From Verrucomicrobiales bacterium (GTDB lineage: Bacteria; Verrucomicrobiota; Verrucomicrobiia; Limisphaerales; SXTU01), in contig SXTU01000190.1 in NCBI GenBank assembly GCA_005791875.1, positions 1 through 33,081 of the forward strand: 33,081 nt of DNA, given 5' to 3'. The translations under genes and the position numbers were made by a program. Under the pieces are notes generated by a model, which searched no databases, was not told the DNA's origin, and saw only the letters and a program-made list of their open reading frames with translations. The stretch's first letter is position 1. Every line of letters begins with the position of its first letter. Positions 18-31,060 of this stretch are shown piece by piece.

Positions 18-56
18 CTCCCTCTCCCAGCGGGAGAGGGCCGGGGTGAGGGAGAA
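18..56. repeat. REP-like palindrome (CCCTCTCCC/GGGAGAGGG family)
   Basis: A short palindrome of CCCTCTCCC and GGGAGAGGG is followed by the tail CCGGGGTGAGGG. The same core with the same kind of tail recurs at 5011-5052, 5144-5184, 11755-11799 and 11855-11897. The copies are intergenic, which fits a REP-type element. No function can be read from the sequence. Confidence 0.7.
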
Positions 57-103
57 CGGGTGCGAGAAGTTCGCAGCATCCAGCACCGCTTTGGCGCACG
101 GGT

Positions 104-331
104 TGATACCAATTCCGAAGGACATCCGGGGGAATGGATTGGGGACTGCGACGCGCGCTGACTCCCTCTCCCTTCATCGGATGAGGGGTGAGGGGTTACG
201 TGCGTCGGCGTTGGCAGCCCCACCCCTCATCCGGCCTGCGGCCACCTTCTCCCCTCCTCCGCGGGAGGGAGAAGGCGTGCGGCGTGCCCTTCGCTTGGCA
301 TCCCACCGGTTGGCATTCGGAATTGGTATCA
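104..331. repeat. 228-base MITE-like element with 16-base terminal inverted repeats
   Basis: The left end reads TGATACCAATTCCGAA (104-119) and the right end carries its exact reverse complement (316-331). Inside lies a second inverted repeat around CGGATGAGGGG: 177-197 pairs with 216-234. There is also a purine-rich block at 260-275. No transposase and no clear target-site duplication is visible. The right end lies inside the coding region of the first gene, contributing its probable start codon (GTG 277), the Shine-Dalgarno-like GGAGGGAGAAGG and the first 18 codons or so. The element nature is inferred from the perfect termini; no second copy is present in the window. Confidence 0.6.
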
Positions 332-3300
332 GTCTCCTTCTCGTCTGCCTCGCCCTCCCCACTTTCGCCGCCGCTCCACTCCCTGCCGACCACGCCGAGC
401 GGATGTCGCGCGGCCTCGTCACCTTCACCCAGCATATCCGCCCCGTGCTCGTGAGGAGCTGCCTGTCCTGCCACGGCGGCGAGAAGACCAAGGGCGGGCT
501 CGACCTCGCCACGCGCGACGAGTTGCTCAAAGGCGGCACCGAAGGCGCGGCCATCGTGCTCTTCAGCGCGAAGGACAGCCGGCTGCTCAAGCTCGTCCGT
601 CACGCTGAGGAGCCGCACATGCCGGAGAAGGCTGACAAACTTTCCCCCGAAGTCATCGCGCGCCTCGAATCGTGGATTGACGACGGTGCGCCATACGACG
701 GTCCGCTCATCGCCGGCAAGGTTGCGAAGGACACATCGAAGGTGACGGACGAAGACCGGAAGTGGTGGGCGTTTCAGCCGCTGCGGAAGATCACGGTGCC
801 AAGTGTCCAGTCTTCAGTATCCAGTGTTCAGTCGGGGCCACGGAGTCCGAGTGCCAAACTGAATACTGCCCCACTGAACACTGAACACTCCTCCCCGATT
901 GACCGCTTCCTCCTCGCCAAAGCTGCCCCGCGCCAGCTCGCCCCGGCCGCCGACAAACGCACGCTCATCCGCCGCGCGCACCTCGACCTCCACGGCATCC
1001 CGCCGTCACCAGACGCCGTGGACGCCTTCCTCGCGGACAACACCCCCGACGCATGGACGAAGCTCATCGCCCGCCTCCTCGACTCCCCGCGCTACGGCGA
1101 GCGTTGGGCGCGGCACTGGCTTGACGTGGCGCGCTTCGCCGAGAGCAGCGGCTTCGAGCACGACTACGACCGCCCCGGCGCGTTCCACTACCGCGACTTC
1201 GTCATCAAGGCGCTCAACAGCGACATGCCGTTCGACCAGTTTCTCCGCTGGCAACTCGCGGGCGACGAGTTCGAGCCGGACAACCCGCTGGCTCTCAGCG
1301 CCACGGGCTTTCTCGGCGCGGGCGTTTTCCCCACGCAAATCACCGCCAACGAAGTCGAGCGCACGCGCTACGACGCGATGGACGACATGCTTTCCACGAC
1401 CGGCTCCGCGTTCCTCGGCCTGACCATCGGCTGCGCCCGCTGCCACGACCACAAATACGACCCGCTCCCCGCCAACGATTACTATCGGATGCTCTCCACG
1501 TTCACGACGACCGTCCGCAGTGTCGTGGACTTAGAGATGGAGCCGGAGAAAACCCGCGAAGCGAAAGCGAAATGGCAGGCCGAAGCCACACCGCTCGCCG
1601 CTGAACTCAAGCGCCACGAAGCCGAGCTCGCGCCGAAGTTGGACGGTTGGCTTGCCGCCGGCGCGGCGATGCCCACAGGCGGCGTGTGGAGTGTCGTTGA
1701 GCTGGCCAGCACGAAGTCGAAGGCTGGCGCGACGTTCAAGAAACTCGACGACCTGTCCTACTTGGTCGAGGGCGCGAACGGCGCCAGCGACGAATACACC
1801 TTCACCTTCACCACTCAGCAGCGACGGCTCACCGGCCTGCGGCTCGAAGCCTTGGCTCACGCCTCGATGAGGGAGGGAGGCCCCGGCCGCGCGGACAACG
1901 GCAACTTCGCCCTCAGCAAAATCACCGTGACTGCCGCGCCGCGTGGCAGCGCGGAAGCCAAGCCTGTGGCGCTCGTCAAAGCCGTGGCAGACTTTGAGCA
2001 GAACAAGGGATACCTCTCCATCGCGTCGTCGCTCGACGACAACCCCAGCTCCGGCTGGGCCGTGGACCCGCAGTTCGGCAAGGACCACGCGGCGGTGTTC
2101 ACTTTTGGCGAAGTGGTGGACTACGCGGGCGGCGCGACCTTCACGGTGAAACTTCAGTTCGCGGTCAATGGGAAGCACAACATCGGTCGCCCGCGCCTCG
2201 CGCTGATGGCCGACGCGGAGCCGACGCTGAAAGGCGAGGACTTGCCTGCGAAGGTCGCCGAGGTGCTGCGGAAGGCGAAGCAGCTGGACTTCAAGTTGTC
2301 CGCTGCCGAGCGCGCGACCTTGCTGGACTGGTGGCTCCGCAAAGACGCCGGCTGGCGCGACCGGCAGGCCAAAATCACCACTCACGCGAGTCGCGAGCCC
2401 GGTGTGAAGACGCAGGTGCTCGTCTGCGCGGAGGGCAACAAGCCGCTGCGGATGCACACGCAGGGCGCGGATTTCTTTGAGCAGACGCATTTCCTCCGGC
2501 GCGGCAGCACGGACCAGAAGCTCGGCGTCGCGCCGCAGGGATTCCTGCAAGTGCTGACTCGCTCGGCCGACGCGGACAAACGCTGGCAGTGGCAGCCGCC
2601 CACTGGGTCGAAGTTCTCCGGTCGGCGCCGCTCGCTGGCGAACTGGCTGACTGACCTGGAGAGCGGGGCAGGGGCCTTGGTCGCGCGCGTGGCGGTGAAC
2701 CGGCTGTGGCAGCACCACTTCGGTCGCGGCCTCGTGGCGACGCCGGATGACTTCGGCCGCACCGGCGCGCTGCCGTCGCATCCGGAGTTGCTCGACTGGC
2801 TGGCGGGGGAGCTGGTTCGGGGCGGGTGGAAGTTGAAGGCGGTGCATCGGCTTATCATGGAGAGCGCGGCTTATCGGGCCGGAAGTGTTCAGTATTCAGT
2901 GTCCAGTGTTCAGTCGGGGAAGGTGGCGGCTGGGCGGTCTGGGCAACTGCCTTCACTGAATACTGACTCACTGAACACTGAACACTTTCTTCATCGGCAG
3001 CCGCGTCGCCTCGAAGGCGAGGCCCTCCGCGACGCGATGCTCGCGGTCAGCGGCCAGCTCGACGCGACGATGTTCGGGCCCGGCACGAAGGACGAGCGCA
3101 GCAAGCGGCGGAGCATTTACTTCACGATGAAGCGCAGCCAACTCATCGGCTCGATGGTGGTCTTCGACCAGCCCGAGCCGCTCGTGAGCCAGGGCGCGCG
3201 GCCCACCACGACCGTCGCCCCGCAGGCACTGCTTCTGATGAACGGCCCACAAGTCCGCGAGTGGGCCGAAGCCTTCGCGCGACGCCTGGAGTCGGACACG

Positions 3301-3513
3301 CCCGGCACCGAGTCACCGGCGCAAGTCGCCCGCGCCTACCTCCTCGCCCTGAGCCGCCCGCCCGCGGTGAAGGAGCAGGCCAGCGCCGCCGCTTTCCTCG
3401 CGTCGCAGACCGCCAGCTACGAAGCCGAGAAGAAGCCGAACGCCCGCAGCCTCGCGCTCGCGGACTTCTGCCAAGTCCTCTTCGGCCTGAACGAATTTGC
3501 GTATGAGAATTGA
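277..3513 (+). CDS. Secreted planctomycete-type cytochrome c / DUF1549 / DUF1553 protein (PSD1 family)
   Basis: This is a 1078-residue exported protein of unknown biochemistry. GTG 277 was chosen because it follows a purine-rich GGAGGGAGAAGG and gives a signal peptide (basic start, hydrophobic core about residues 13-29, AAA near 31-33). The open frame runs back to position 46 but covers only repeat DNA there. Domains in order: PSCyt1 haem domain with CLSCH at 62-66; DUF1549 from about 206, with a second CXXCH (CARCH, 386-390); a beta-sandwich, carbohydrate-binding-like middle region at about 455-655; DUF1553 from about 786 with the family signature VNRLWQHHFG. Two palindromic repeats are inserted in frame (residues about 176-205 and 870-903). 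It overlaps the DUF1501 gene by 11 bases. Such pairs are common in Planctomycetota and Verrucomicrobiota and are usually linked to polysaccharide use; that role is inferred. Confidence 0.9.
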   Translation: MRRALRLASHRLAFGIGISLLLVCLALPTFAAAPLPADHAERMSRGLVTFTQHIRPVLVRSCLSCHGGEKTKGGLDLATRDELLKGGTEGAAIVLFSAKDSRLLKLVRHAEEPHMPEKADKLSPEVIARLESWIDDGAPYDGPLIAGKVAKDTSKVTDEDRKWWAFQPLRKITVPSVQSSVSSVQSGPRSPSAKLNTAPLNTEHSSPIDRFLLAKAAPRQLAPAADKRTLIRRAHLDLHGIPPSPDAVDAFLADNTPDAWTKLIARLLDSPRYGERWARHWLDVARFAESSGFEHDYDRPGAFHYRDFVIKALNSDMPFDQFLRWQLAGDEFEPDNPLALSATGFLGAGVFPTQITANEVERTRYDAMDDMLSTTGSAFLGLTIGCARCHDHKYDPLPANDYYRMLSTFTTTVRSVVDLEMEPEKTREAKAKWQAEATPLAAELKRHEAELAPKLDGWLAAGAAMPTGGVWSVVELASTKSKAGATFKKLDDLSYLVEGANGASDEYTFTFTTQQRRLTGLRLEALAHASMREGGPGRADNGNFALSKITVTAAPRGSAEAKPVALVKAVADFEQNKGYLSIASSLDDNPSSGWAVDPQFGKDHAAVFTFGEVVDYAGGATFTVKLQFAVNGKHNIGRPRLALMADAEPTLKGEDLPAKVAEVLRKAKQLDFKLSAAERATLLDWWLRKDAGWRDRQAKITTHASREPGVKTQVLVCAEGNKPLRMHTQGADFFEQTHFLRRGSTDQKLGVAPQGFLQVLTRSADADKRWQWQPPTGSKFSGRRRSLANWLTDLESGAGALVARVAVNRLWQHHFGRGLVATPDDFGRTGALPSHPELLDWLAGELVRGGWKLKAVHRLIMESAAYRAGSVQYSVSSVQSGKVAAGRSGQLPSLNTDSLNTEHFLHRQPRRLEGEALRDAMLAVSGQLDATMFGPGTKDERSKRRSIYFTMKRSQLIGSMVVFDQPEPLVSQGARPTTTVAPQALLLMNGPQVREWAEAFARRLESDTPGTESPAQVARAYLLALSRPPAVKEQASAAAFLASQTASYEAEKKPNARSLALADFCQVLFGLNEFAYEN
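802..889 (+). repeat. In-frame heptamer palindromic repeat, copy 1
   Basis: The left arm (802-833) is four and a half units of a 7-base motif of the form AGTNNYC. A spacer of about 23 bases follows. The right arm (857-889) is built from the reverse complement (ACTGAACACTGAACAC). It is translated in frame as SVQSSVSSVQS, then spacer residues, then LNTAPLNTEH. It lies in the linker between the haem domain and DUF1549, where the third paralog (28490-31060) has an ordinary linker. Confidence 0.85.
2884..2985 (+). repeat. In-frame heptamer palindromic repeat, copy 2
   Basis: The left arm (2884-2915) consists of the heptamers AGTGTTC, AGTATTC, AGTGTCC and AGTGTTC. The right arm (2953-2985) is their inverted counterpart, after a spacer of about 37 bases. 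It is translated in the same frame as copy 1, giving SVQYSVSSVQS and LNTDSLNTEH. It sits directly after the SAAYR motif of the DUF1553 domain and displaces the short segment that joins SATY to RRLE in the paralog at 28490-31060. Confidence 0.85.
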
Positions 3514-4948
3514 AACCGAACCCCGTGCCGGCACGTTCTCCCGCCGCCAACTCCTCCAACGCGCCGGTGGCGGCCTTGGCTGGCTCGCCGCCGCGAGCTT
3601 GCTCGGCCGAGACGCGCTCGCCGGGTCGCTGAACCCGCTCGCCCCGAAGTCCGCGCACTTCACTCCACGCGCCAAGTCCGTCATCTGGATTTTCGCCAAC
3701 GGCGGGCCGAGCCAGGTGGACACTTGGGATTACAAACCCGAGCTGGTGAAGCGCGATGGCACGGAGCTCGGCGGCTTTGACAACAAGACCGGTTTCTTCC
3801 CCGGCTCCGTCGGGCCGCTGATGAAGTCGCCCTTCGCGTGGCAGCAGGGCGGGCAGAGCGGCACCTGGACCTCCGAGCTTTTCCCGCATCTCTCGGGGCA
3901 GGTGGACAAGCTTGTCTTCATTCACTCGTGCTTCACGAACTCGAACAACCACAGCCCGGCGCTGTTCATGATGAACACCGGCGTCACGCGCATGGGCAGT
4001 CCGTGCGTCGGCTCGTGGGTGACCTACGGCCTCGGCTCGGAGAGCGACGCGCTGCCGAGCTTCGTGGTGATGAGCGACCCGCTGAATCGCGGCCTGCCGA
4101 AGGGCCATGCGCTCAACTGGGGCGCAGGTTTCCTGCCGAGCGTGTATCAAGGCACCTGGCTCAAGCCGCAGGGCGAACCCATCACCAACCTCAAGCCACC
4201 GGCGAACCTCAACGAGTCGCGCCAGCGCGCGCAGCTCGACCTGCTCGCGTCACTGAACCGCGACCACCTCGCGCAAGGCCCGCTGGACAACGAGCTAGGC
4301 GCACGCATCGAGAGCTTCGAGCTGGCGTATCGGATGCAGACAGCCGCGCCGGAGGCGTTCGATGTGTCGCGCGAGCCGGAGCACATCCGGCGGCTCTACG
4401 GCATCGGTGAGAAGCACTGCGGACACTTCGCCGCGCAATGCCTGACCGCGCGCCGGATGGTCGAGCGCGGCGTGCGCTTCGTGCAGGTTTACAGTGGCGG
4501 CATGGAGAATCAGCAGAGCTGGGACTGCCACTCGGACTTGATTGGCAACCATCGCGGCTTCGCGGCGGAGGCAGACCAACCCGTCGCCGCGCTGCTGGCG
4601 GACTTGGAGCAACGCGGCTTGCTGAAGGACACGCTGGTCATCTGGGCCGGCGAGTTCGGGCGGCTGCCGGTGTCGCAGAAGGGCGGCAAACCGGGTCGCG
4701 ATCACAACCCGCACGCGTTCACCGCGTGGCTCGCGGGCGGCGGCGTGAAGGGCGGCTTCCACTATGGCGAGACGGATGAGATTGGTTTCCGCGCCGCCGT
4801 GAACAAGGTGAGCGTGCGCGACTTCCACGCGACGATCCTCCACGCCCTTGGCCTCGACCACGAGCGGCTGGCGTTCAAATTCCAAGGGCTTGACCAGCGG
4901 CTGACCGGCGTGGAACACGCGCGGGTGGTGAATCAGATTTTTGCGTGA
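3503..4948 (+). CDS. DUF1501 protein no. 1, Tat-exported
   Basis: A 481-residue member of DUF1501, a family related to the alkaline phosphatase/sulfatase fold and nearly always encoded beside DUF1549/DUF1553 proteins. ATG 3503 overlaps the end of the upstream gene, suggesting translational coupling; an in-frame TTG lies 6 bases earlier. The N-terminus has a twin-arginine signal (SRRQLLQ, then a hydrophobic stretch ending near DALAG). Family signatures visible are the NGGPSQVDTWDYKP segment near the N-terminus, ERGVRFVQ in the middle, then WAGEFGR, GRDHNPHAF and DFHATILHALGLDHE towards the end. The substrate is unknown. Export and partnership with the upstream PSD1 protein are well supported by context; hydrolase activity is only implied by the fold. 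Confidence 0.92.
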   Translation: MRIETEPRAGTFSRRQLLQRAGGGLGWLAAASLLGRDALAGSLNPLAPKSAHFTPRAKSVIWIFANGGPSQVDTWDYKPELVKRDGTELGGFDNKTGFFPGSVGPLMKSPFAWQQGGQSGTWTSELFPHLSGQVDKLVFIHSCFTNSNNHSPALFMMNTGVTRMGSPCVGSWVTYGLGSESDALPSFVVMSDPLNRGLPKGHALNWGAGFLPSVYQGTWLKPQGEPITNLKPPANLNESRQRAQLDLLASLNRDHLAQGPLDNELGARIESFELAYRMQTAAPEAFDVSREPEHIRRLYGIGEKHCGHFAAQCLTARRMVERGVRFVQVYSGGMENQQSWDCHSDLIGNHRGFAAEADQPVAALLADLEQRGLLKDTLVIWAGEFGRLPVSQKGGKPGRDHNPHAFTAWLAGGGVKGGFHYGETDEIGFRAAVNKVSVRDFHATILHALGLDHERLAFKFQGLDQRLTGVEHARVVNQIFA

Positions 4949-5010
4949 GCCGAGTGATGAACAGCCACCACTTTCAATGGGCAGAGGATGCGGGTGGGCG
5001 TCCGGCGTTC

Positions 5011-5184
5011 TCTTCCCTCTCCCCCATCGGGGGAGAGGGCAGGGTGAGGGGGCAAGCGCGCGGAGTAGCGGGGCGTTCGGCTTCAAGAGATGGCGGGGAG
5101 GGCCGCGCTGAATTTCTGACTGCTCGAACTGCTGGACGACTTTCCCCCTCACCCCGGCCCTTTCCCCCGGTGGGGGAGAGGGAG
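5011..5184. repeat. REPIN-like doublet: two inverted REP-like palindromes
   Basis: One copy (5011-5052) reads CCCTCTCCCCCATCGGGGGAGAGGG with a TGAGGGGG tail. The second (5144-5184) is in the opposite orientation, starting CCCCCTCACCCC and ending GGGGGAGAGGG. About 91 bases with no recognisable gene separate them. With the hairpin at 5235-5311 they fill most of the 376-base gap between the two DUF1501 genes; I see no gene there. Confidence 0.65.
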
Positions 5185-5234
5185 TCGAAGTGCGCTAGCT
5201 TCGTGCGGTGCGGGCTGAAGTTTCGCTCATCGAT

Positions 5235-5311
5235 TGGAGCGCGGACGCCTACGTCCGCAGTCGCGACACTTCCCAAACCAAGCTGCTGCGGACGTGGGCG
5301 TCCGCGCTCCA
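5235..5311. repeat. Long hairpin just before a DUF1501 start codon
   Basis: A 26-base arm at 5235-5260 pairs with 5286-5311 at every position except one (T5250 opposite G, a GU wobble in RNA), with a 25-base loop. The foot of the stem lies 13 bases before ATG 5325. It may be a mobile palindromic repeat, a terminator for the upstream gene pair, or a structure in the 5' leader of the DUF1501 gene. There is no T run after it, so a canonical intrinsic terminator is unlikely. Confidence 0.75.
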
Positions 5312-5324
5312 TTTGCTTTTAGTT

Positions 5325-6791
5325 ATGAACTGCAACGACCACCAATTCCGCAACCTCGACGCAGCACAGCGGCTCGCGGTCACGCGCCGGACTTTCCTCG
5401 CGAACTCCGCCGCTGGGCTGGGCCTCGGCGCGCTCGGTTCGCTCATGGGCAACTCGGCCAGCGCCGCGCCCACGCCCACCGCCACGTTTCCAAACTTCGC
5501 GCCCAAGGCCAAGCGCGTCATCTATCTCTTCCAGTCGGGCGCGCCGTCGCAGATGGATTTGTTCGACCCGAAGCCGGTGATGGAGAAGCACCGGGGCGAG
5601 GACTTGCCGGAGTCCATCCGTAAGGGCCAGCGGCTCACGACGATGACGAGCGGGCAGGCGAAGTTCGCCATCGCGCCGAGCCTCTTCCAGTTCGCGCAGC
5701 ACGGGCAGAGCGGTGCTTGGCTCAGTGAACTCCTCCCGCACACGGCGCGCATCGCGGACGACCTCTGCATCATCCGCACGCTCAACACGGACGCCATCAA
5801 CCACGACCCAGCCATCACGTTCTTCCAGACCGGGCACCAGCTCCCCGGCCGGCCCAGCATGGGCTCGTGGTTGAGCTACGGCCTCGGCAGCGAGAATCGC
5901 GATCTGCCGGCTTACGTGGTGCTCACCTCCTTTGGCTCCGGTCGGCCGGATGACCAGCCGCTCTACGACCGCCTGTGGAGCAGCGGCTTTCTCCCGACGC
6001 AGCATCAAGGCGTGAAGTTCCGCAACAAGGGTGACCCGGTTCTCTATCTTTCCAACCCGCCCGGCATGGACCGCGAGACGCGCCGCGAGACGCTCGATGA
6101 ACTCGGCGCGTTGAACAGCCGCCGCTTCAAGGCGCTCGGCGACCCGGAAATCCAGGCGCGCATCGCCCAATACGAACTGGCCTTCCGCATGCAGACCAGC
6201 GTGCCCGAGCTGACGGACTTCTCGAAGGAGCCGCAGGCCATCCTCGACAACTACGGCCCCGACGTGAAGCGCCCCGGCAGCTACGCCGCGAACTGCCTGC
6301 TCGCGCGCCGGCTCGCCGAGCGGAACGTCCGCTTCATCCAGCTTTTTCACATGGGCTGGGACCACCACGGCGGTTTGCCGAAGGCCATTCGCGGCCAGTG
6401 CAACGACACCGACCAGGCCACGGCGGCGTTGCTGCTCGACTTGAAGCAGCGCGGCCTGCTCGACGACACGCTCATCGTCTGGGGCGGCGAGTTTGGCCGG
6501 ACGATTTACTCGCAGGGCGGGCTGACCGCCGACAACTACGGCCGCGACCATCACCCGCGCTGCTTCACGATGTGGCTGGCCGGCGCAGGCGTGAAGCCCG
6601 GCATCACGTTCGGCGAGACGGACGACTACTGCTACAATGTCGTCCGCGACCCCGTGAGCATCTACGACCTGCACGCCACGATGATGCACCTGCTGGGCAT
6701 CGAGCACACGCGCCTGACCTACCGCTTCCAAGGCCGCAACTTCCGGCTCACGGACATCCACGGCGAGCTGGTGAAGCCCATTCTCGCGTGA
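5325..6791 (+). CDS. DUF1501 protein no. 2, Tat-exported
   Basis: A 488-residue DUF1501 protein. ATG 5325 is the first start after the hairpin; the frame is open back to 5208 but covers the repeat. The N-terminus carries the twin-arginine motif TRRTFL and a hydrophobic stretch ending near NSASAA. Family signatures are [47 protein letters not shown] and [14 protein letters not shown]. Its stop codon overlaps the GTG of the next gene (GTGA), so the two are probably translated together. No clear Shine-Dalgarno sequence is seen. The function is unknown beyond family membership and export. Confidence 0.92.
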
Positions 6792-9322
6792 CCAATCTGC
6801 TGCGAACACTCCTCTTCACATTGTTCACCGGTGCGCTCATGGCAGCGCCGGCTCAACGCGGAACCGGTGCCGAGCTGCGCGAGCATTGGGCCTTCAAGCC
6901 GGTGTCGAACCCGGTCCCGCCCATGACGAAGGACAAGTCCTGGCCGCGCAACGCCGTGGATCGCTTCAGCCTCGCGCGGTTGGAGAAGGAAGCCTTGCGC
7001 CCCTCGCCGGCGGCGGCGCGTGCGACTTGGCTTCGGCGTGTGTCGTTCGACCTCATTGGCCTGCCTCCAACGCCGGAGCAGGTCACAACCTTCGTAGCAG
7101 ACACGCGGGCTGATGCCTTCGAGCGGGTGGTGGATGAACTGCTCGCGTCACCGCGTTACGGCGAACGATGGGCGCAGCACTGGCTCGACGTGGTGCGTTA
7201 CGCGGACACGCACGGCTTCGAGGTGAACACCGAGCGCCCGAACGCCTGGCCTTACCGCGACTACGTGATCGCCGCGCTCAACCGCGATACTCCCTACGAC
7301 CGTTTCATTCGTGAGCAGATTGTTGGCGACGCGCTCGGACAGGATGCAGCGACGGGTTTCCTCGTCACGGCTTCCGTGCTGCTGCCGGGGCAGATCGGCA
7401 GGGATGAGCCTTCCAAGCGCCTTGCGCGGCAGGATTCACTGGACGAGATCGTGATGAACATCGGGCAGACGTTTCTCGGCCTGAGCGTGGGCTGCGCGCG
7501 GTGCCACGATCACATGTTCGATCCCATCACGCAGCGCGATTACTACGCGATGCAGGCGTTTGTCGCGGGCGTGGAGTATGGCGACCGCGAAGTCCGCACG
7601 CCCGAGGCGGAGGCGGCGCGCGCGGAGGAGAAGCGGCTCACGGCACAGGCAGCGGAAGTCGAGCGGCAGCTCGCGCGCTTCGTGCCGCTGGCGAAGGTTG
7701 GCGGAGAGCGTCCGTCCGTGAACGCGCGGATGAACACCGACCGCTTCGCTCCCGTGACTGCGAAGCGGGTTCGCTTCACGATCAAGGCAACGAACAATCT
7801 GGAGCCGTGCATTGACGAGCTGGAAGTCTTCGACACGTCGGGAACGAACGTCGCGCTGGTCGCCGCAGGTGCGACGGTCACGGCTTCAGGCAGCAACGTC
7901 TCTGCCGACCGCCATGAATTGCGCTTCCTCAATGACGGGCGCTACGGCAACTCGCGCAGTTGGATGTCGAGCGAGATGGGCAGGGGATGGGTGGTGGTCG
8001 AGTTTTCGCGCGAGCACACGATTGATCGCGTCGTGTGGGGCCGCGATCGCGAGGAGAAGTTCACCGACCGGCTCCCGACTGACTACGTCGTCGAAGTCTC
8101 CACGGCCGAGGGCGAGTGGCGCGTCGTGGCGGATGTGACGGATCGCGCGAAGTTCGAGCCGGGCAAAGCCAAGCCGACCGCTTTCTCCACTGCGGGCCTG
8201 AGTGCAGGCGACGCGGCGGAGGCGACGCGTTTGCAGCAGGAGCGCAAGGCACTCGAGGCGAAACTCAAGACCACTGCCTCTGCACAGATGGCGTTCGCCG
8301 GGAAGTTCCGCGCGCCTGACAACATCCGCCTGCTGCATCGCGGCGACCCGGAGCAGCCGAAGGACGAAGTGATGCCCGCAGTTCTCAGCGCGCTGGGCAA
8401 GGTGCAACTCCCGAAGCACGCCGCCGAGCAGGACCGCCGGACGGCACTTGCGGACTGGGTCGCCAGCCCGCAGAACCCGCTCACCGCACGCGTGATGGTG
8501 AACCGCATCTGGCAGGGGCACTTCGGCGCCGGCCTCGTGGAGACGCCGAGTGACTTCGGGCGGAACGGCGCACGGCCCTCGCATCCCGAACTCCTTGACT
8601 GGCTCGCGTCGGAGTTCGTGCGCTCCGGTTGGTCGATGAAGCACATGCACCGGCTCATTGTGCTGTCGGCGACGTATAGGCAAGGGAGTGCTCAGTCTTC
8701 AGTGTTCAGTAATCAGTCCCGAGGGCGCCCGACGGCCAAACTGAACACTGAACACACCAAGGCGCAGCAGGTGGATGCCGACGTGCGGCTCTTCTGGCAC
8801 TTTCCCTCCCGCCGCCTCGCAGCCGAGACCATTCGCGATGCGATGCTCGCGGTAAGCGGGCGGCTGGATACGAAGATGTTTGGCCGTGGCTTCAACCTCT
8901 TCGCGCAGCGCGGTGGGTTGAGCGGCTTCACGCCGGTCGAGTCCTACAGTGGCGACGGTTTGCGTCGCATGATCTACGCGCACAAGGTCCGTCGCGAGCG
9001 CGAGGCGGTGTTCGGCTCGTTCGATTGTCCCGACGCCGGCCAGAGCACCGCGCGCCGCCGCGAGAGCACGACGCCCATTCAGGCGCTGAACTTGTTCAAC
9101 AGCCGGTTCACGCTCGATGAATCCGCCGCACTAGCTGACCGCGCAAAGCGGGAGGCAGGCGATGATTTGGAGAAGCAGATTCACCGGGCGTATCAACTCG
9201 CCCTCGGACGTGCGCCTAGCGCGAGCGAACTGGCTGAGGTTGAACCTGTCGTCCGCGAACATGGCCTCGCGACACTTGGCCGGGCACTGTTCAACTCGAA
9301 CGAATTCCTCTTCCTGCCGTGA
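6788..9322 (+). CDS. Secreted DUF1549 / F5-8C-like / DUF1553 protein lacking the N-terminal cytochrome domain
   Basis: An 844-residue protein starting at GTG 6788, which overlaps the previous stop (GTGA); the frame is open further upstream only as a shadow of the DUF1501 gene. A short signal peptide ([15 protein letters not shown], then LMAAPA) leads straight into EHWAFKP, the segment that normally follows the PSCyt1 domain, so the N-terminal haem domain is absent. DUF1549 spans about 56-260 and includes CARCH at 236-240. A discoidin-like (F5/8 type C) domain lies at about 315-450, with the typical IDELEVFD and FLNDGRYGN segments. DUF1553 runs from about 555 to the end. An in-frame palindromic repeat occupies residues about 634-656. 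Its stop overlaps the next DUF1501 start (GTGA). The biochemical role is unknown. Confidence 0.9.
8687..8755 (+). repeat. In-frame heptamer palindromic repeat, copy 3
   Basis: The left arm (8687-8718) is AGTGCTC, AGTCTTC, AGTGTTC, AGTAATC, AGTC. The right arm (8738-8755) is the shortened inverted counterpart AACTGAACACTGAACAC. It is translated in the same frame as the other copies ([11 protein letters not shown] and KLNTEH). It is inserted after SATYRQ of DUF1553, the position homologous to copy 2. Confidence 0.85.
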
Positions 9323-11754: not shown

Positions 11755-11897
11755 CGTTCTCCCTCACCCCGCCCCTCTCCCGCTGGGAGAGGGAGAACGT
11801 CAGCCAGCGCCCGAAGTGCTTTGGCGTTCCTGTCGGCAGAAGGCGGAGTGCGTCGCTCCCTCTCCCGGATGGAGAGGGCCGGGGTGAGGGGGAAAGG
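11755..11897. repeat. REPIN-like doublet in a divergent promoter region
   Basis: A copy at 11755-11799 (CGTTCTCCCTCACCCC ... GAGGGAGAACG) and one at 11855-11897 in the opposite orientation (CCCTCTCCCGGATGGAGAGGG with a GGGGTGAGGGGG tail) flank a 55-base spacer. The 362-base gap 11653-12014 between divergent genes holds this doublet; otherwise I see nothing there, and no promoter can be assigned with confidence. Confidence 0.65.
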
Positions 11898-12014
11898 CGC
11901 CTGCGACGCGACAGCCCCGGTTCGAGTCTGTTCTGCTTCGACCTGCAAAAAACTGAGATGCGCCCATCATCCGCCCGCCTTGCCTTCCCTTCTTCGCAGT
12001 GTTTAATCGCTCGC

Positions 12015-28489: not shown

Positions 28490-31060
28490 ATGAAACCCGC
28501 AATACTCCTGTTGGCCTGCCTCGCACTCGTCGTCGGCGTGGCACCCGCTGCGGACGCGAAGAAAAAAAAGCAGCTATTGCCCCCCGCAAAACCAGCACCG
28601 GCTTCCGCTGCGAAGCCAGCGTCGCCTGCGGCACCGACTGGAAAGGCCCCCGCCGCGCCAGCCACACTCACGGCCGACCAGTCCGCGTTCTTCGAAAACA
28701 AAATCCGCCCCATCCTTGCCGCACATTGCCTCAAGTGCCACAGCGCCGCCGAGGGCAAGACGAAGGGCGGCCTCGCGCTCGATTCGCGCGATGGCACGCT
28801 CAAGGGCGGCGATTCCGGCCCCGCAGTCGTCCCCGGCAACCCGGACAAGTCCCCGCTCATCCGCGCCGTCCGCTACGCCGACCCAAATCTCCAGATGCCG
28901 CCCAAAGGCGAGAAACTTTCCGACGTCCAAGTCGCCGACCTCGTCGCGTGGGTTCGGATGGGCGCGCCCGACCCGCGCACCGGCGCGGCCAAGGGCAAAT
29001 ACGCCAACGCTGGCGAGCGCAAAGTCTGGTGGGCCTTCCAACCCGTGAAGCTCACGCCCGCGCCCGCCGTGCAGAACAAGGCTTGGGCCGCGAATCCCGT
29101 GGACAACTTCATCCTCGCCAAGCTGGAGGAGAAAAACCTCAAGCCCAGCGCACCCGCCGACAAACGCGTGGTGATTCGCCGCCTTTACTTCGACATCATC
29201 GGCCTGCCGCCGTCACCGGAAGAAGTCGAGTCGTTCGTGAACGACAAATCTTCCACTTCCTACGAGAAGCTCGTGGACAAGCTGCTCGCCTCGCCGCACT
29301 ACGGCGAACGTTGGGGCCGGCACTGGCTGGACGTGGCCCGCTATTCGGACACCATCGGCGACCCCGCCAAGCGCCGTGAGTCGCCCGCGTATCCGTTCGC
29401 GTGGACGTATCGCGACTACGTCGTCAAGGCGTTCAACAGCGACAAGCCTTACGACCAGTTCATCCGCGAGCAGATTGCCGCCGACAAGCTGCCCAACAAC
29501 AAGGACCGCACTTCGCTCGCCGCGCTGGGCTTCATCACCGTGGGCGACCACTTCGATGGCAACCGCGACGACATCATCAACGACCGCATTGACGTGGTGA
29601 CGAAGGCTTTTAGCGGCCTGACCGTCGCCTGTGCGCGCTGCCACGACCACATGTTTGACCCGATTCCGACGAAGGATTACTACGCGCTGCACGGCATCTT
29701 CGCGAGCACCGAGGAGCCGAAGGAGTTGCCCATCATCGGCGCGACGGATCGGGTGAAGTATGCGGAATACCTCAAGGAGAAGGCCGCGCTGGACAAGGCC
29801 GAGGCCGACCTCGTGGCGCAGGCGAAGGCGGCGAAGGCGAAAGGCGGCAAGCCAGCCAACAAGAAGGAACTCCAGAAGCAGGCGCAGCAACTCACCGTTC
29901 AAGGCGACCGGCTCGACATGACACATCCCGGTGCGCCCGCCCGCGCGATGGCCGTGCAGGATTCGGACAGGCCGAAGGATTCGCCGGTCTATATCCGCGG
30001 CGAGAAGGACAACAAGGGCGACCTCGTCCCGCGCCGTTACTTGGAAATTTTCCGCGCGCCGAATGCAAAGCCCTTCACCTACGGCAGCGGGCGTCTGGAA
30101 CTTTCCTACGCCATCGCGAACAAGAGCAACCCGCTCACCGCGCGCGTGCTGGTGAACCGCGTCTGGCAGCACCACTTCGGCGAGGGCTTCGTGCTGACGC
30201 CGGACGACTTCGGCACCATGAGCACGCCGCCCAGCCACCCGGAGTTGCTCGATTACCTCAGCACCTATTTCATGGACAGCGGCTGGTCGGTGAAGAAACT
30301 CCACAAGCTCATCGTGATGTCTGCGACTTACCAGCAGGCGAGCACGGACAACCCGCGTTACGCGCAGCTCGACCCGTTCAACCGCCTGCTCTGGCGGCAG
30401 AACGTGCGCCGGCTGGAGTTCGAGCCGCTGCGTGATTCCATCCTCGCGATGGCCGGCTCGCTCGACCGAACGATGGGCGGCCAGCCCGTGAACCTTGGCG
30501 GCGGCAGTGCCAACAACCCCGGCAAGGAAAAGGCCAAGACCGGCGGCGCGCTGCGTCCACAGGGCAGCTACTCCACGCGCCGCACGCTCTACGGCTACAT
30601 TGACCGCGCGAACGTGGCCGAGGTGCTGAACCACTTCGACTTCGCGCAGCCCGAGATGCCCAACGGCAAGCGCTACCAGACCACCGTCCCGCAGCAGGCG
30701 CTCTTCCTGATGAACAACCCGCTGGTCATCGAGCAGGCGCGGAAGATTGTCGAACGCACCGACTTCAAGGGCGTGGAGGACGACGAGAAGCGCATCGCGT
30801 TCCTCTATGGACTGATTTTCCAACGCCCGCCGACCGCGCAGGAAGTCCAGCTCGGCCTCGCGTTCTTTGAGGAAGCGCCCGCGCCAGGTAGCAAGTCTGC
30901 GGCAGCCACGCCGACCGTTCAGGTCGCACCGGTGCGCGTCGCCGCAGCAAAAGGCAAGCTGCCCATTTCCGTGCCGCGCATCACGCCGCGCCCGCTGAGT
31001 GCGTGGGCGGAATATGCCCACGCGCTCATCCTCGCGAACGAGTTCACGTTTGTGAACTGA
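28490..31060 (+). CDS. Secreted planctomycete-type cytochrome c / DUF1549 / DUF1553 protein, no inserted domain
   Basis: An 856-residue member with the plain architecture. Signal peptide: MKPAILLLACLALVVGVAPAADA. A Lys/Pro/Ala-rich linker (24-60) starts with a run of lysines encoded by eight A's in a row (28562-28569). The PSCyt1 haem site is CLKCH (80-84). DUF1549 runs about 200-405 and includes CARCH (381-385). Next comes a helical, alanine/lysine-rich segment instead of the beta-sandwich of its paralogs, and DUF1553 from about 535 with VNRVWQHHFGEGF and LMNNPLVIEQARKI. It contains no heptamer repeat and so serves as the reference for where the other two genes carry insertions. It is probably cotranscribed with DUF1501 no. 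4. Confidence 0.93.
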   Translation: MKPAILLLACLALVVGVAPAADAKKKKQLLPPAKPAPASAAKPASPAAPTGKAPAAPATLTADQSAFFENKIRPILAAHCLKCHSAAEGKTKGGLALDSRDGTLKGGDSGPAVVPGNPDKSPLIRAVRYADPNLQMPPKGEKLSDVQVADLVAWVRMGAPDPRTGAAKGKYANAGERKVWWAFQPVKLTPAPAVQNKAWAANPVDNFILAKLEEKNLKPSAPADKRVVIRRLYFDIIGLPPSPEEVESFVNDKSSTSYEKLVDKLLASPHYGERWGRHWLDVARYSDTIGDPAKRRESPAYPFAWTYRDYVVKAFNSDKPYDQFIREQIAADKLPNNKDRTSLAALGFITVGDHFDGNRDDIINDRIDVVTKAFSGLTVACARCHDHMFDPIPTKDYYALHGIFASTEEPKELPIIGATDRVKYAEYLKEKAALDKAEADLVAQAKAAKAKGGKPANKKELQKQAQQLTVQGDRLDMTHPGAPARAMAVQDSDRPKDSPVYIRGEKDNKGDLVPRRYLEIFRAPNAKPFTYGSGRLELSYAIANKSNPLTARVLVNRVWQHHFGEGFVLTPDDFGTMSTPPSHPELLDYLSTYFMDSGWSVKKLHKLIVMSATYQQASTDNPRYAQLDPFNRLLWRQNVRRLEFEPLRDSILAMAGSLDRTMGGQPVNLGGGSANNPGKEKAKTGGALRPQGSYSTRRTLYGYIDRANVAEVLNHFDFAQPEMPNGKRYQTTVPQQALFLMNNPLVIEQARKIVERTDFKGVEDDEKRIAFLYGLIFQRPPTAQEVQLGLAFFEEAPAPGSKSAAATPTVQVAPVRVAAAKGKLPISVPRITPRPLSAWAEYAHALILANEFTFVN

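Follow-up and report, generated by a model that had tools for sequence, protein, structure and literature searches.

What are short palindromes built of degenerate heptamers doing in frame inside conserved bacterial proteins, and how did they come to be there? The question is raised by contig SXTU01000190.1 (C139) of the 4.7-Mb draft genome of a Verrucomicrobiales bacterium (assembly GCA_005791875.1; hereafter the host genome, or G000), the 33,081 nucleotides of which constitute the window analysed here. Three copies of such an element lie within two of its genes, both encoding proteins with PSCyt and PSD1 domains. Copies of the element are dispersed over unrelated sites, are present in open frame in unrelated proteins and are absent from the homologues of these proteins. 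We consider it probable that the window features are copies of a short dispersed non-autonomous palindrome, comparable to miniature inverted-repeat transposable elements (MITE) or Rickettsia palindromic elements (RPE), which sits in frame in loops and linkers and represents one word among many.

The three copies lie where the preliminary description had placed them, except that copy 2 ends at position 2986 rather than 2985 (extents 802-889, 2884-2986 and 8687-8755). All are inverted and two-armed, with GC-rich loops of 22-40 bases:

46..3513, plus strand: host protein 1, with PSCyt1 (residues 139-193), PSCyt2 (284-489) and PSD1 (860-1118)
802..832, plus strand: left arm of copy 1, NNYCAGT heptamers (AGTGTCCAGTCTTCAGTATCCAGTGTTCAGT), reading SVQSSVSSVQS
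833..857: GC-rich loop of copy 1
858..889, plus strand: right arm of copy 1, ACTGRNN heptamers with an 8-base step that avoids the TGA phase, reading LNTAPLNTEH
2884..2914, plus strand: left arm of copy 2
2915..2954: loop of copy 2
2955..2986, plus strand: right arm of copy 2, reading SLNTDSLNTEHF
6788..9322, plus strand: host protein 2, with PSCyt2, F5/8 type C and PSD1 (550-819)
8687..8717, plus strand: left arm of copy 3
8718..8739: loop of copy 3
8740..8755, plus strand: right arm of copy 3, two units, reading LNTEH
28490..31060, plus strand: another PSD1 protein, the third in the window, a paralogue whose site is empty, the loop having its usual short form (SATYQQASTDNPRYAQLDPFN)

Copy 1 is located in the PSCyt1-PSCyt2 linker of host protein 1, directly ahead of PSCyt2, and copy 2 in the PSD1 loop of the same protein, the real start codon of which is probably downstream of position 46. 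Copies 2 and 3 occupy one equivalent PSD1 loop, after the motif SA.YR. As had been proposed, all three are read in the same frame, with CAGT in phases 0, 1, 2, 0 and a right arm that gives LNTEH; their common orientation is also as described, which says little for an inverted repeat. Allowing up to three mismatches, ACTGAACACTGAACAC has 12 matches in the window, all of them within the three elements (mean 0.13 and maximum 2 in 100 dinucleotide shuffles), and AGTGTTCAGT has 18 matches at up to one mismatch, compared with a shuffle mean of 0.80. Hairpin folding of copies 1-3 yields z-scores of -3.57, -6.43 and -3.22 as DNA and of -5.31, -7.98 and -2.04 as RNA. An Rfam scan of the window gave no match, and none of the solved structures searched matched PSD1; a structure predicted for host protein 2 on the basis of the window's three PSD1 proteins had a mean pLDDT (predicted local distance difference test) of 33.4 and was set aside.

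The initial impression that there were no copies outside the two genes holds for the window contig only. Searched across the host genome at up to one mismatch, the 16-mer ACTGAACACTGAACAC has 57 + 53 matches (reversed-pattern control, 0 + 0), and the two-arm pattern, its registers overlapping, is found at 56 places per strand (control, zero). At least 50 two-armed copies are present, 47 extracted by script from fetched loci plus the three of the window; they come from the matches listed in two genome searches, and some have a single unit in one arm. Four further ACTGANN copies in PSD1 loops (C44, C141, C287 and C111:23447), from a PSD1 search, are additional to these 50. The consensus consists of GGGGAAGT, usually 2-5 NNYCAGT heptamers, a GC-rich loop, usually 2-5 ACTGRNN heptamers and ACTTCCCC, with a terminal consensus GGGGA-AGT; one-unit arms and one seven-unit arm also occur, and the G-rich ends are present in part of the copies. 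Elements are mostly 70-115 bp long, with loops mostly of 19-54 bases. All six copies folded have good stems, often with a shifted register. Among 30 clean elements the spacers are mostly GTT, ATT, AAT and TTT, and spacer covariation between arms is absent, slightly under chance (0.3% of shuffles are as low). Arm complementarity is 0.633 within elements and 0.662 between different elements (35 elements; p for lower, 0.016). The arms of one element thus match no better than the arms of different elements, which points to a shared vocabulary rather than to arms that are copies of each other.

Twenty of the 50 extracted copies are inside genes and 30 outside, an in-gene call being made from the codon usage of the flanks together with an open frame; the location in coding regions noted for the window copies is therefore that of a part of the set, and the CAGT/ACTG word itself proved to be one of many heptamer arrays. 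Among elements with enough flank, 20 of 48 were called in-gene, compared with 373 of 594 windows drawn at random from these loci (p = 0.005): genes are depleted of copies, not avoided. The in-gene copies occupy nine PSCyt1-PSCyt2 linkers, five PSD1 loops and one other site in a PSD1 protein, so that PSCyt/PSD1 proteins account for 15 of the 20 hosts; the remainder are UvrA, QueG, a CusA-type ACR_tran (resistance-nodulation-division) protein and two proteins without a Pfam match. Alignment to insert-free homologues, which the preliminary description had suggested, bears out the insertion: solved relatives of QueG, UvrA and CusA have no SVQ/LNTEH insert. In QueG the insert lies at a loop that is shorter in 5d08 and 5d6s. 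The UvrA insert spans residues 369-405, where alignments to 3pih and 2r6f stop at 372 and 368 and restart at 444 and 446, respectively, and the insert of the CusA-type transporter spans 448-510, where the alignment to CusA (3t51) stops at 441 and restarts at 519. At some gene ends the element apparently supplies the stop codon (AAGTAATCAGT in loci L002, L012 and L037), and on contig C173 it fills, as judged by eye, the gap between one stop and one start codon. In two loci of contig C60 (L002, 1391-1526; L030, 1388-1516), the left arm is at the stop codon of the previous gene and the right arm near an apparent signal peptide end, the start codon falling within a loop of 87-91 bases; by eye, the two neighbouring genes are sulfatase-like.

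How such an element can be read through is explained by its phase. In the right arm, the phase shifts by one with each unit, so that a long right arm must meet TGA, every frame being hit beyond about two units; in the left arm, almost all frames are open. In-gene copies evade TGA by a short right arm, by an 8-base step or by ACTGG replacing ACTGA at the stop phase. In the 17 in-gene copies outside the window, all eight stop-phase units are ACTGG and 51 of the 52 units in other phases are ACTGA; in non-gene copies, ACTGG makes up 22 of 189 units. We considered the eight ACTGG units as evidence of selection and dropped them, since only open copies were counted as in-gene and the result is forced. 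More informative are the 30 non-gene copies, in which a mean of 0.7 of 6 frames is open (none at all in 12), compared with 3.8 of 6 in 922 length-matched random windows; a copy dropped into a gene would hence be open about once in nine times, and the in-gene copies are a filtered minority. A bias in frame can accordingly be judged in part only, from the openness of the non-gene copies; the frame rule among in-gene copies is circular, and orientation is uninformative.

Comparison of orthologous sites, at which words and most site states were judged by eye, indicates that one protein site can hold different words. Eleven genomes of the genus were searched (G000-G010). At the copy-3 site of host protein 2 orthologues, G001 and G002 have the same word, G005 a different palindrome, G009 NCGAATT/CGCAATC heptamers and G010 an 8-base array, and in G003 the site is empty, with an 11-residue loop. 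A second PSD1 group carries ACTGANN (G000), ATTAGTN (G007), GGAGTTT/AAACCCC (G004), TTACGNN (G005) and ACTAATN (G003), and short remnants in G006 and G010; its flanks are 87-94% identical to those of G000 in the four genomes measured (G004, G006, G007 and G010). A third group has ACTGANN (G000, G001, G002 and G004), ATTAGTN (G007), TTACGNN (G005), an 8-base array (G009) and a CTCGAC palindrome (G006). Within the host genome, the PSD1 search yielded 69 stretches, partial ones included, after five pairs among 74 rows were merged. By eye, 17 of these have clear loop inserts (nine ACTGANN, two ACTAATN, three a GTAG-type palindrome and three others), two have partial ones and about 50 have no such insert. 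The GTAG-starting palindromes are read in frame (GTAGCAGCCGACGTGAGGAGGCTC..GAGCCTCCTCACGTCGGCTGCTAC in the PSD1 loops of L152, L163 and L174, with a similar one in UvrA of G005, L340) and resemble GTAG-tagged repetitive extragenic palindromes (REP).

The most complete series comes from UvrA, for which G006 and G008 provided no comparable sequence. The loop holds an insert in all nine comparable genus genomes, with five different words: ACTGANN (G000), GATAGAA (G001, G002, G007 and G010), GGGGAAT (G003 and G009), TTACGNN (G004) and, in G005, a GTAG-type palindrome with GCGGAAC heptamers inside its loop. Outside the genus, it is filled in one of nine genomes (G019, TTACGNN). In each of the ten filled loops, autocorrelation peaks at lag 7 (z 3.1-7.7), and in eight the stem is above that of each of 200 shuffles, whereas two have no stem within the loop; no lag-7 peak was found in the five outside-genus loops tested (of eight without a heptamer word), one of which, from G014, has a stem with p 0.01. 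On a UvrA tree built without the insert columns, at least five word changes are required among the ten filled rows, and seven if the empty rows are included, the genus part being poorly resolved. The insert starts vary by word, an observation in favour of separate insertions having entered one permissive loop; the lack of an empty loop in any comparable genus genome favours rewriting of occupied sites. The evidence pulls both ways. QueG, for which G001 and G009 provided no sequence, behaves differently: seven genus genomes have one word or near variants of it, and G003 and G006 have degenerate forms, the pattern to be expected of one old insertion; a relative outside the genus has a QueG naturally free of the insert. 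In-frame stops listed for the QueG relatives checked sit upstream of QueG, in the wrong frame of the neighbouring gene. In some members of the genus, a PSD1 or QueG site shows remnants, or its loop is empty.

Scans with no preset word place the element in a larger set. The 156 loci used, picked by homology to PSD1, UvrA and QueG and partially overlapping, contain 128 distinct tandem arrays of unit 7 (at least four units). Each of the other unit lengths from 4 to 12 is represented by 14 arrays at most, with none at 9, 11 and 12, which puts unit 7 ahead about nine-fold. The unit-7 arrays comprise 57 consensus words, some of them near variants of each other. An inverted partner is present within 110 bp for 39 of the 126 arrays with enough flank, a direct partner for two and another word for two; with the ACTG and ACTAAT words left out, 20 of 98 arrays still have an inverted partner. 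Inverted two-armed pairs number 19 for unit 7 (one locus counted twice), four for unit 8 (two loci, each counted twice) and three for unit 5, with none at units 6, 9 and 10; shuffles gave a single pair, at unit 5. The density of unit-7 arrays is 8.5 per 100 kb in other genera of the order, compared with 14.1 and 30.2 in the genus, with the same length preference. Words are unevenly distributed among species: TTACGNN occurs at 27 places in G005 (reversed control, 2) and at 0-3 places in each of the other ten genus genomes, and ACTAATN is most frequent in G007 (6) and G000 (4).

The two-arm ACTG pattern is present in all 11 genus genomes (2-74 places per strand; reversed control 0-5, with 5 compared to 11 in G010), in seven of 47 other genomes of the order and in 18 of 288 genomes drawn from the phylum, host genome included. 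Several of the latter have one place, and the reversed control reached nine matches in one genome lacking true matches. A stricter pattern of 22 fixed bases matched at least 117 stretches in the genome_contigs collection, compared with about 0.4 expected at even base composition; in viral_contigs, the two-arm pattern occurs in five stretches. By record title, the matches listed belong to Chloroflexota (57), Bacteroidota (20), Planctomycetota (12), Verrucomicrobiota (11), Pseudomonadota (11) and six others, approximate counts given that eleven of the 117 labels are doubtful (one Bifidobacterium, two Klebsiella, two Akkermansia and six of a 'Proteobacteria' metagenome-assembled genome, MAG). Records of Flavobacterium type strains, among them F. 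xanthum DSM 3661 and F. soli DSM 19725, also match the word. The sequences of L253, L303, L285 and L241/L312 seem at odds with their titles Bifidobacterium breve (33% GC), Klebsiella pneumoniae, Akkermansia muciniphila and 'Proteobacteria bacterium', respectively; a 'Proteobacteria bacterium' record carries a PSCyt-like protein, and MAG labels may be wrong. In these listed loci, the element lies in a long open frame in one of 24 cases below 50% GC and 14 of 86 above, compared with 115 of 240 and 549 of 860 random positions. The 15 open-frame copies (Chloroflexota 8, Verrucomicrobiota 3, records titled Pseudomonadota 4) have SVFSVQ-like left arms and LNTEH- or TEHW-like right arms, the latter in all 15 because the fixed bases of the search pattern dictate them in any open copy. 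By eye, their hosts include nonribosomal peptide synthetase adenylation domains of Anaerolineae, and a Limisphaerales MAG encodes a relative of host protein 1 with an insert at the copy-2 site.

Under the interpretation that we favour, a non-autonomous palindrome resembling MITE or RPE, copies would arrive by transposition in trans through a putative enzyme, purifying selection would remove those whose frame holds a stop, and surface loops and linkers would tolerate copies that keep the frame open. The element would be one word of a larger set of arrays with a 7-bp step, different words filling the same permissive loops in different species. As in MITE, the ends are inverted repeats, the inverted arms carrying GGGGAAGT...ACTTCCCC in part of the copies. 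Spread by mobility, which the preliminary description had already proposed by extrapolation, still has to be read from distribution, and several results weigh against it. No target-site duplication was detected among 25 copies with both consensus ends, the direct matches between flanks equalling those of shuffled pairs (the exact ends are uncertain), and no occupied/empty polymorphic site was seen within one species. No transposase or autonomous partner was found among the two families searched, PF01797 and PF00078: Y1_Tnp (PF01797) is present in 45 of 56 relatives and was not detected in the element-bearing, incomplete genomes G001, G003 and G009, and RVT_1 (PF00078) has two matches in G005 and none in the other ten genus genomes (71-95% complete). 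The flanks of twelve of the 30 non-gene copies score as coding in a single shared frame, but the copies contain stops; three of these resemble gene junctions. Finally, random insertion does not easily explain why one UvrA loop is filled in nine of nine comparable species. A doubtful but conceivable extension is that one machinery lays inverted arrays with a fixed 7-bp step and a changeable word and preferentially rewrites sites that already hold an array, so that conserved proteins, UvrA among them, would each show a species-specific in-frame heptamer palindrome at a fixed loop. A retroelement or telomerase-like templated origin of the arrays is disfavoured by the lack of detectable RVT_1 in ten of the 11 genus genomes.

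Explanations without a mobile element fare worse. Several copies do sit at the same PSD1 loop in paralogues, which would suit the view that SVQ and LNTEH are ordinary conserved or repetitive PSD1 protein sequence. That view, singled out beforehand for checking, is refuted by the unrelated hosts: the same DNA recurs in UvrA, QueG, the CusA-type protein and between genes, most PSD1 stretches of the host genome lack the insert, the G003 orthologue has a loop without these residues and the inserts of other orthologues are unrelated. Moreover, 7 is not a multiple of 3, and we give this explanation next to no credence. Slippage or hairpin-templated (snap-back) synthesis acting separately at each site, without mobility, is quite unlikely: tandem arrays and palindromes can form in place and the unit length is strikingly uniform, but one word is found at many unlinked loci of one genome, and snap-back synthesis is further contradicted by arms no more complementary within an element than between elements.

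A selected function, be it of the peptide or of an mRNA or DNA hairpin that paces translation or binds a regulator, would account for the strong hairpins of the six folded copies, for sites that remain filled across species and for the stems of eight of the ten UvrA inserts. Against this, one site carries unrelated peptides in different species, two UvrA inserts lack a stem within the loop, and PSD1 or QueG sites are reduced to remnants or empty in some genus members, all of which makes a function of this kind unlikely. That the element is one class of GTAG/CGTC-tagged REP mobilised by RAYT (REP-associated tyrosine transposases) is suggested by the REPs reported inside uvrA genes of Opitutus terrae (PMC3733652) and by the GTAG-type palindrome at three PSD1 loops of the host genome. 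We regard it as very unlikely, given termini that are GGGGAAGT/ACTTCCCC-like with no GTAG or CGTC by eye, a greater length, a heptamer build and a Y1_Tnp distribution that does not track the elements.

The window contains further repeats. A second dispersed inverted repeat (CTCCCTCTCCC..GGGAGAGGGCCGGGGTGAGGGAG) occurs at 18-58, 5014-5055, 5142-5183, 11755-11795 and 11856-11901, and by eye, the ACTGANN element of the CusA-type gene (L131) has a similar sequence in its loop, a repeat within a repeat. A near-perfect 26-base hairpin (TGGAGCGCGGACGCCTACGTCCGCAG) lies at 5235-5260/5286-5311, and another inverted repeat (TGATACCAATTCCGAA..TTCGGAATTGGTATCA) at 104-136/299-331, near the start of the host protein 1 frame.

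Rickettsia palindromic elements, reportedly described by Ogata et al. in 2000, are one point of comparison. They form several families of dispersed palindromes, which unrelated proteins carry in frame (MITE review, PMC10969869). The likeness to RPE proposed in the preliminary description is upheld by dispersed palindromes in frame inside unrelated proteins, with 20 of 50 copies in genes and the insert absent from the solved relatives of three hosts; the differences are the 7-bp units with free spacer bases, the occurrence in several phyla and the species-specific words at one site. REPs lie inside genes in a number of species, and in the verrucomicrobium O. terrae in both uvrA genes; GTAG/CGTC REP termini can provide the stop codon of a neighbouring gene, and recB of two Xanthomonas species has different REPs at about one site (PMC3733652). 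Palindromes inside genes, uvrA included, and termini supplying stop codons are thus common to both; a GTAG/CGTC tag on a palindrome of 20-40 bp was not found here, where the ends are GGGGA-AGT, the arms are heptameric and Y1 transposases do not follow the element. TAACTGA direct repeats are described from Beggiatoaceae, Cyanobacteria and Bacteroidetes, mostly intergenic and with one inverted case (PMC4679880). Like our elements, they have heptamers of this general form (ACTGATA is a case of ACTGANN), contain stops in one orientation, overlap the ends of genes and have no known mechanism; they are, however, direct, head-to-tail repeats mainly just upstream of start codons, whereas our elements have two inverted arms and insertions deep in genes. 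The GGGNATC repeats of Xanthomonas and Nostoc (PMC4692102) are likewise dispersed 7-bp tandem arrays near gene ends, and UvrA of G003 and G009 has a similar-looking word, GGGGAAT; the GGGNATC repeats differ in being of G-quadruplex type and under-represented, as tandem arrays, in coding regions. The same source mentions an over-representation of heptamers among bacteria that has not been studied in detail. In the open-licence literature searched, we found no description of a two-armed heptamer form inside conserved proteins or of word replacement at a fixed site: in-gene palindromes are known and heptamer arrays are known, and what was not found described is their combination and the turnover of words at one site.

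Collectively, heptamer arrays and in-gene palindromes, so far separate matters, are one thing here. If a rewriting machinery did exist, it would represent a shared architecture without shared sequence and would account for the excess of heptamer repeats in the genomes of bacteria. When predicted proteins of these bacteria are interpreted, it should be borne in mind that they can contain loops encoded by repeats. Because the insertions affect conserved genes, occupancy and word can be followed across species, which makes two questions testable, namely the preference for a 7-bp step and the addition of peptides to enzymes by selfish DNA.

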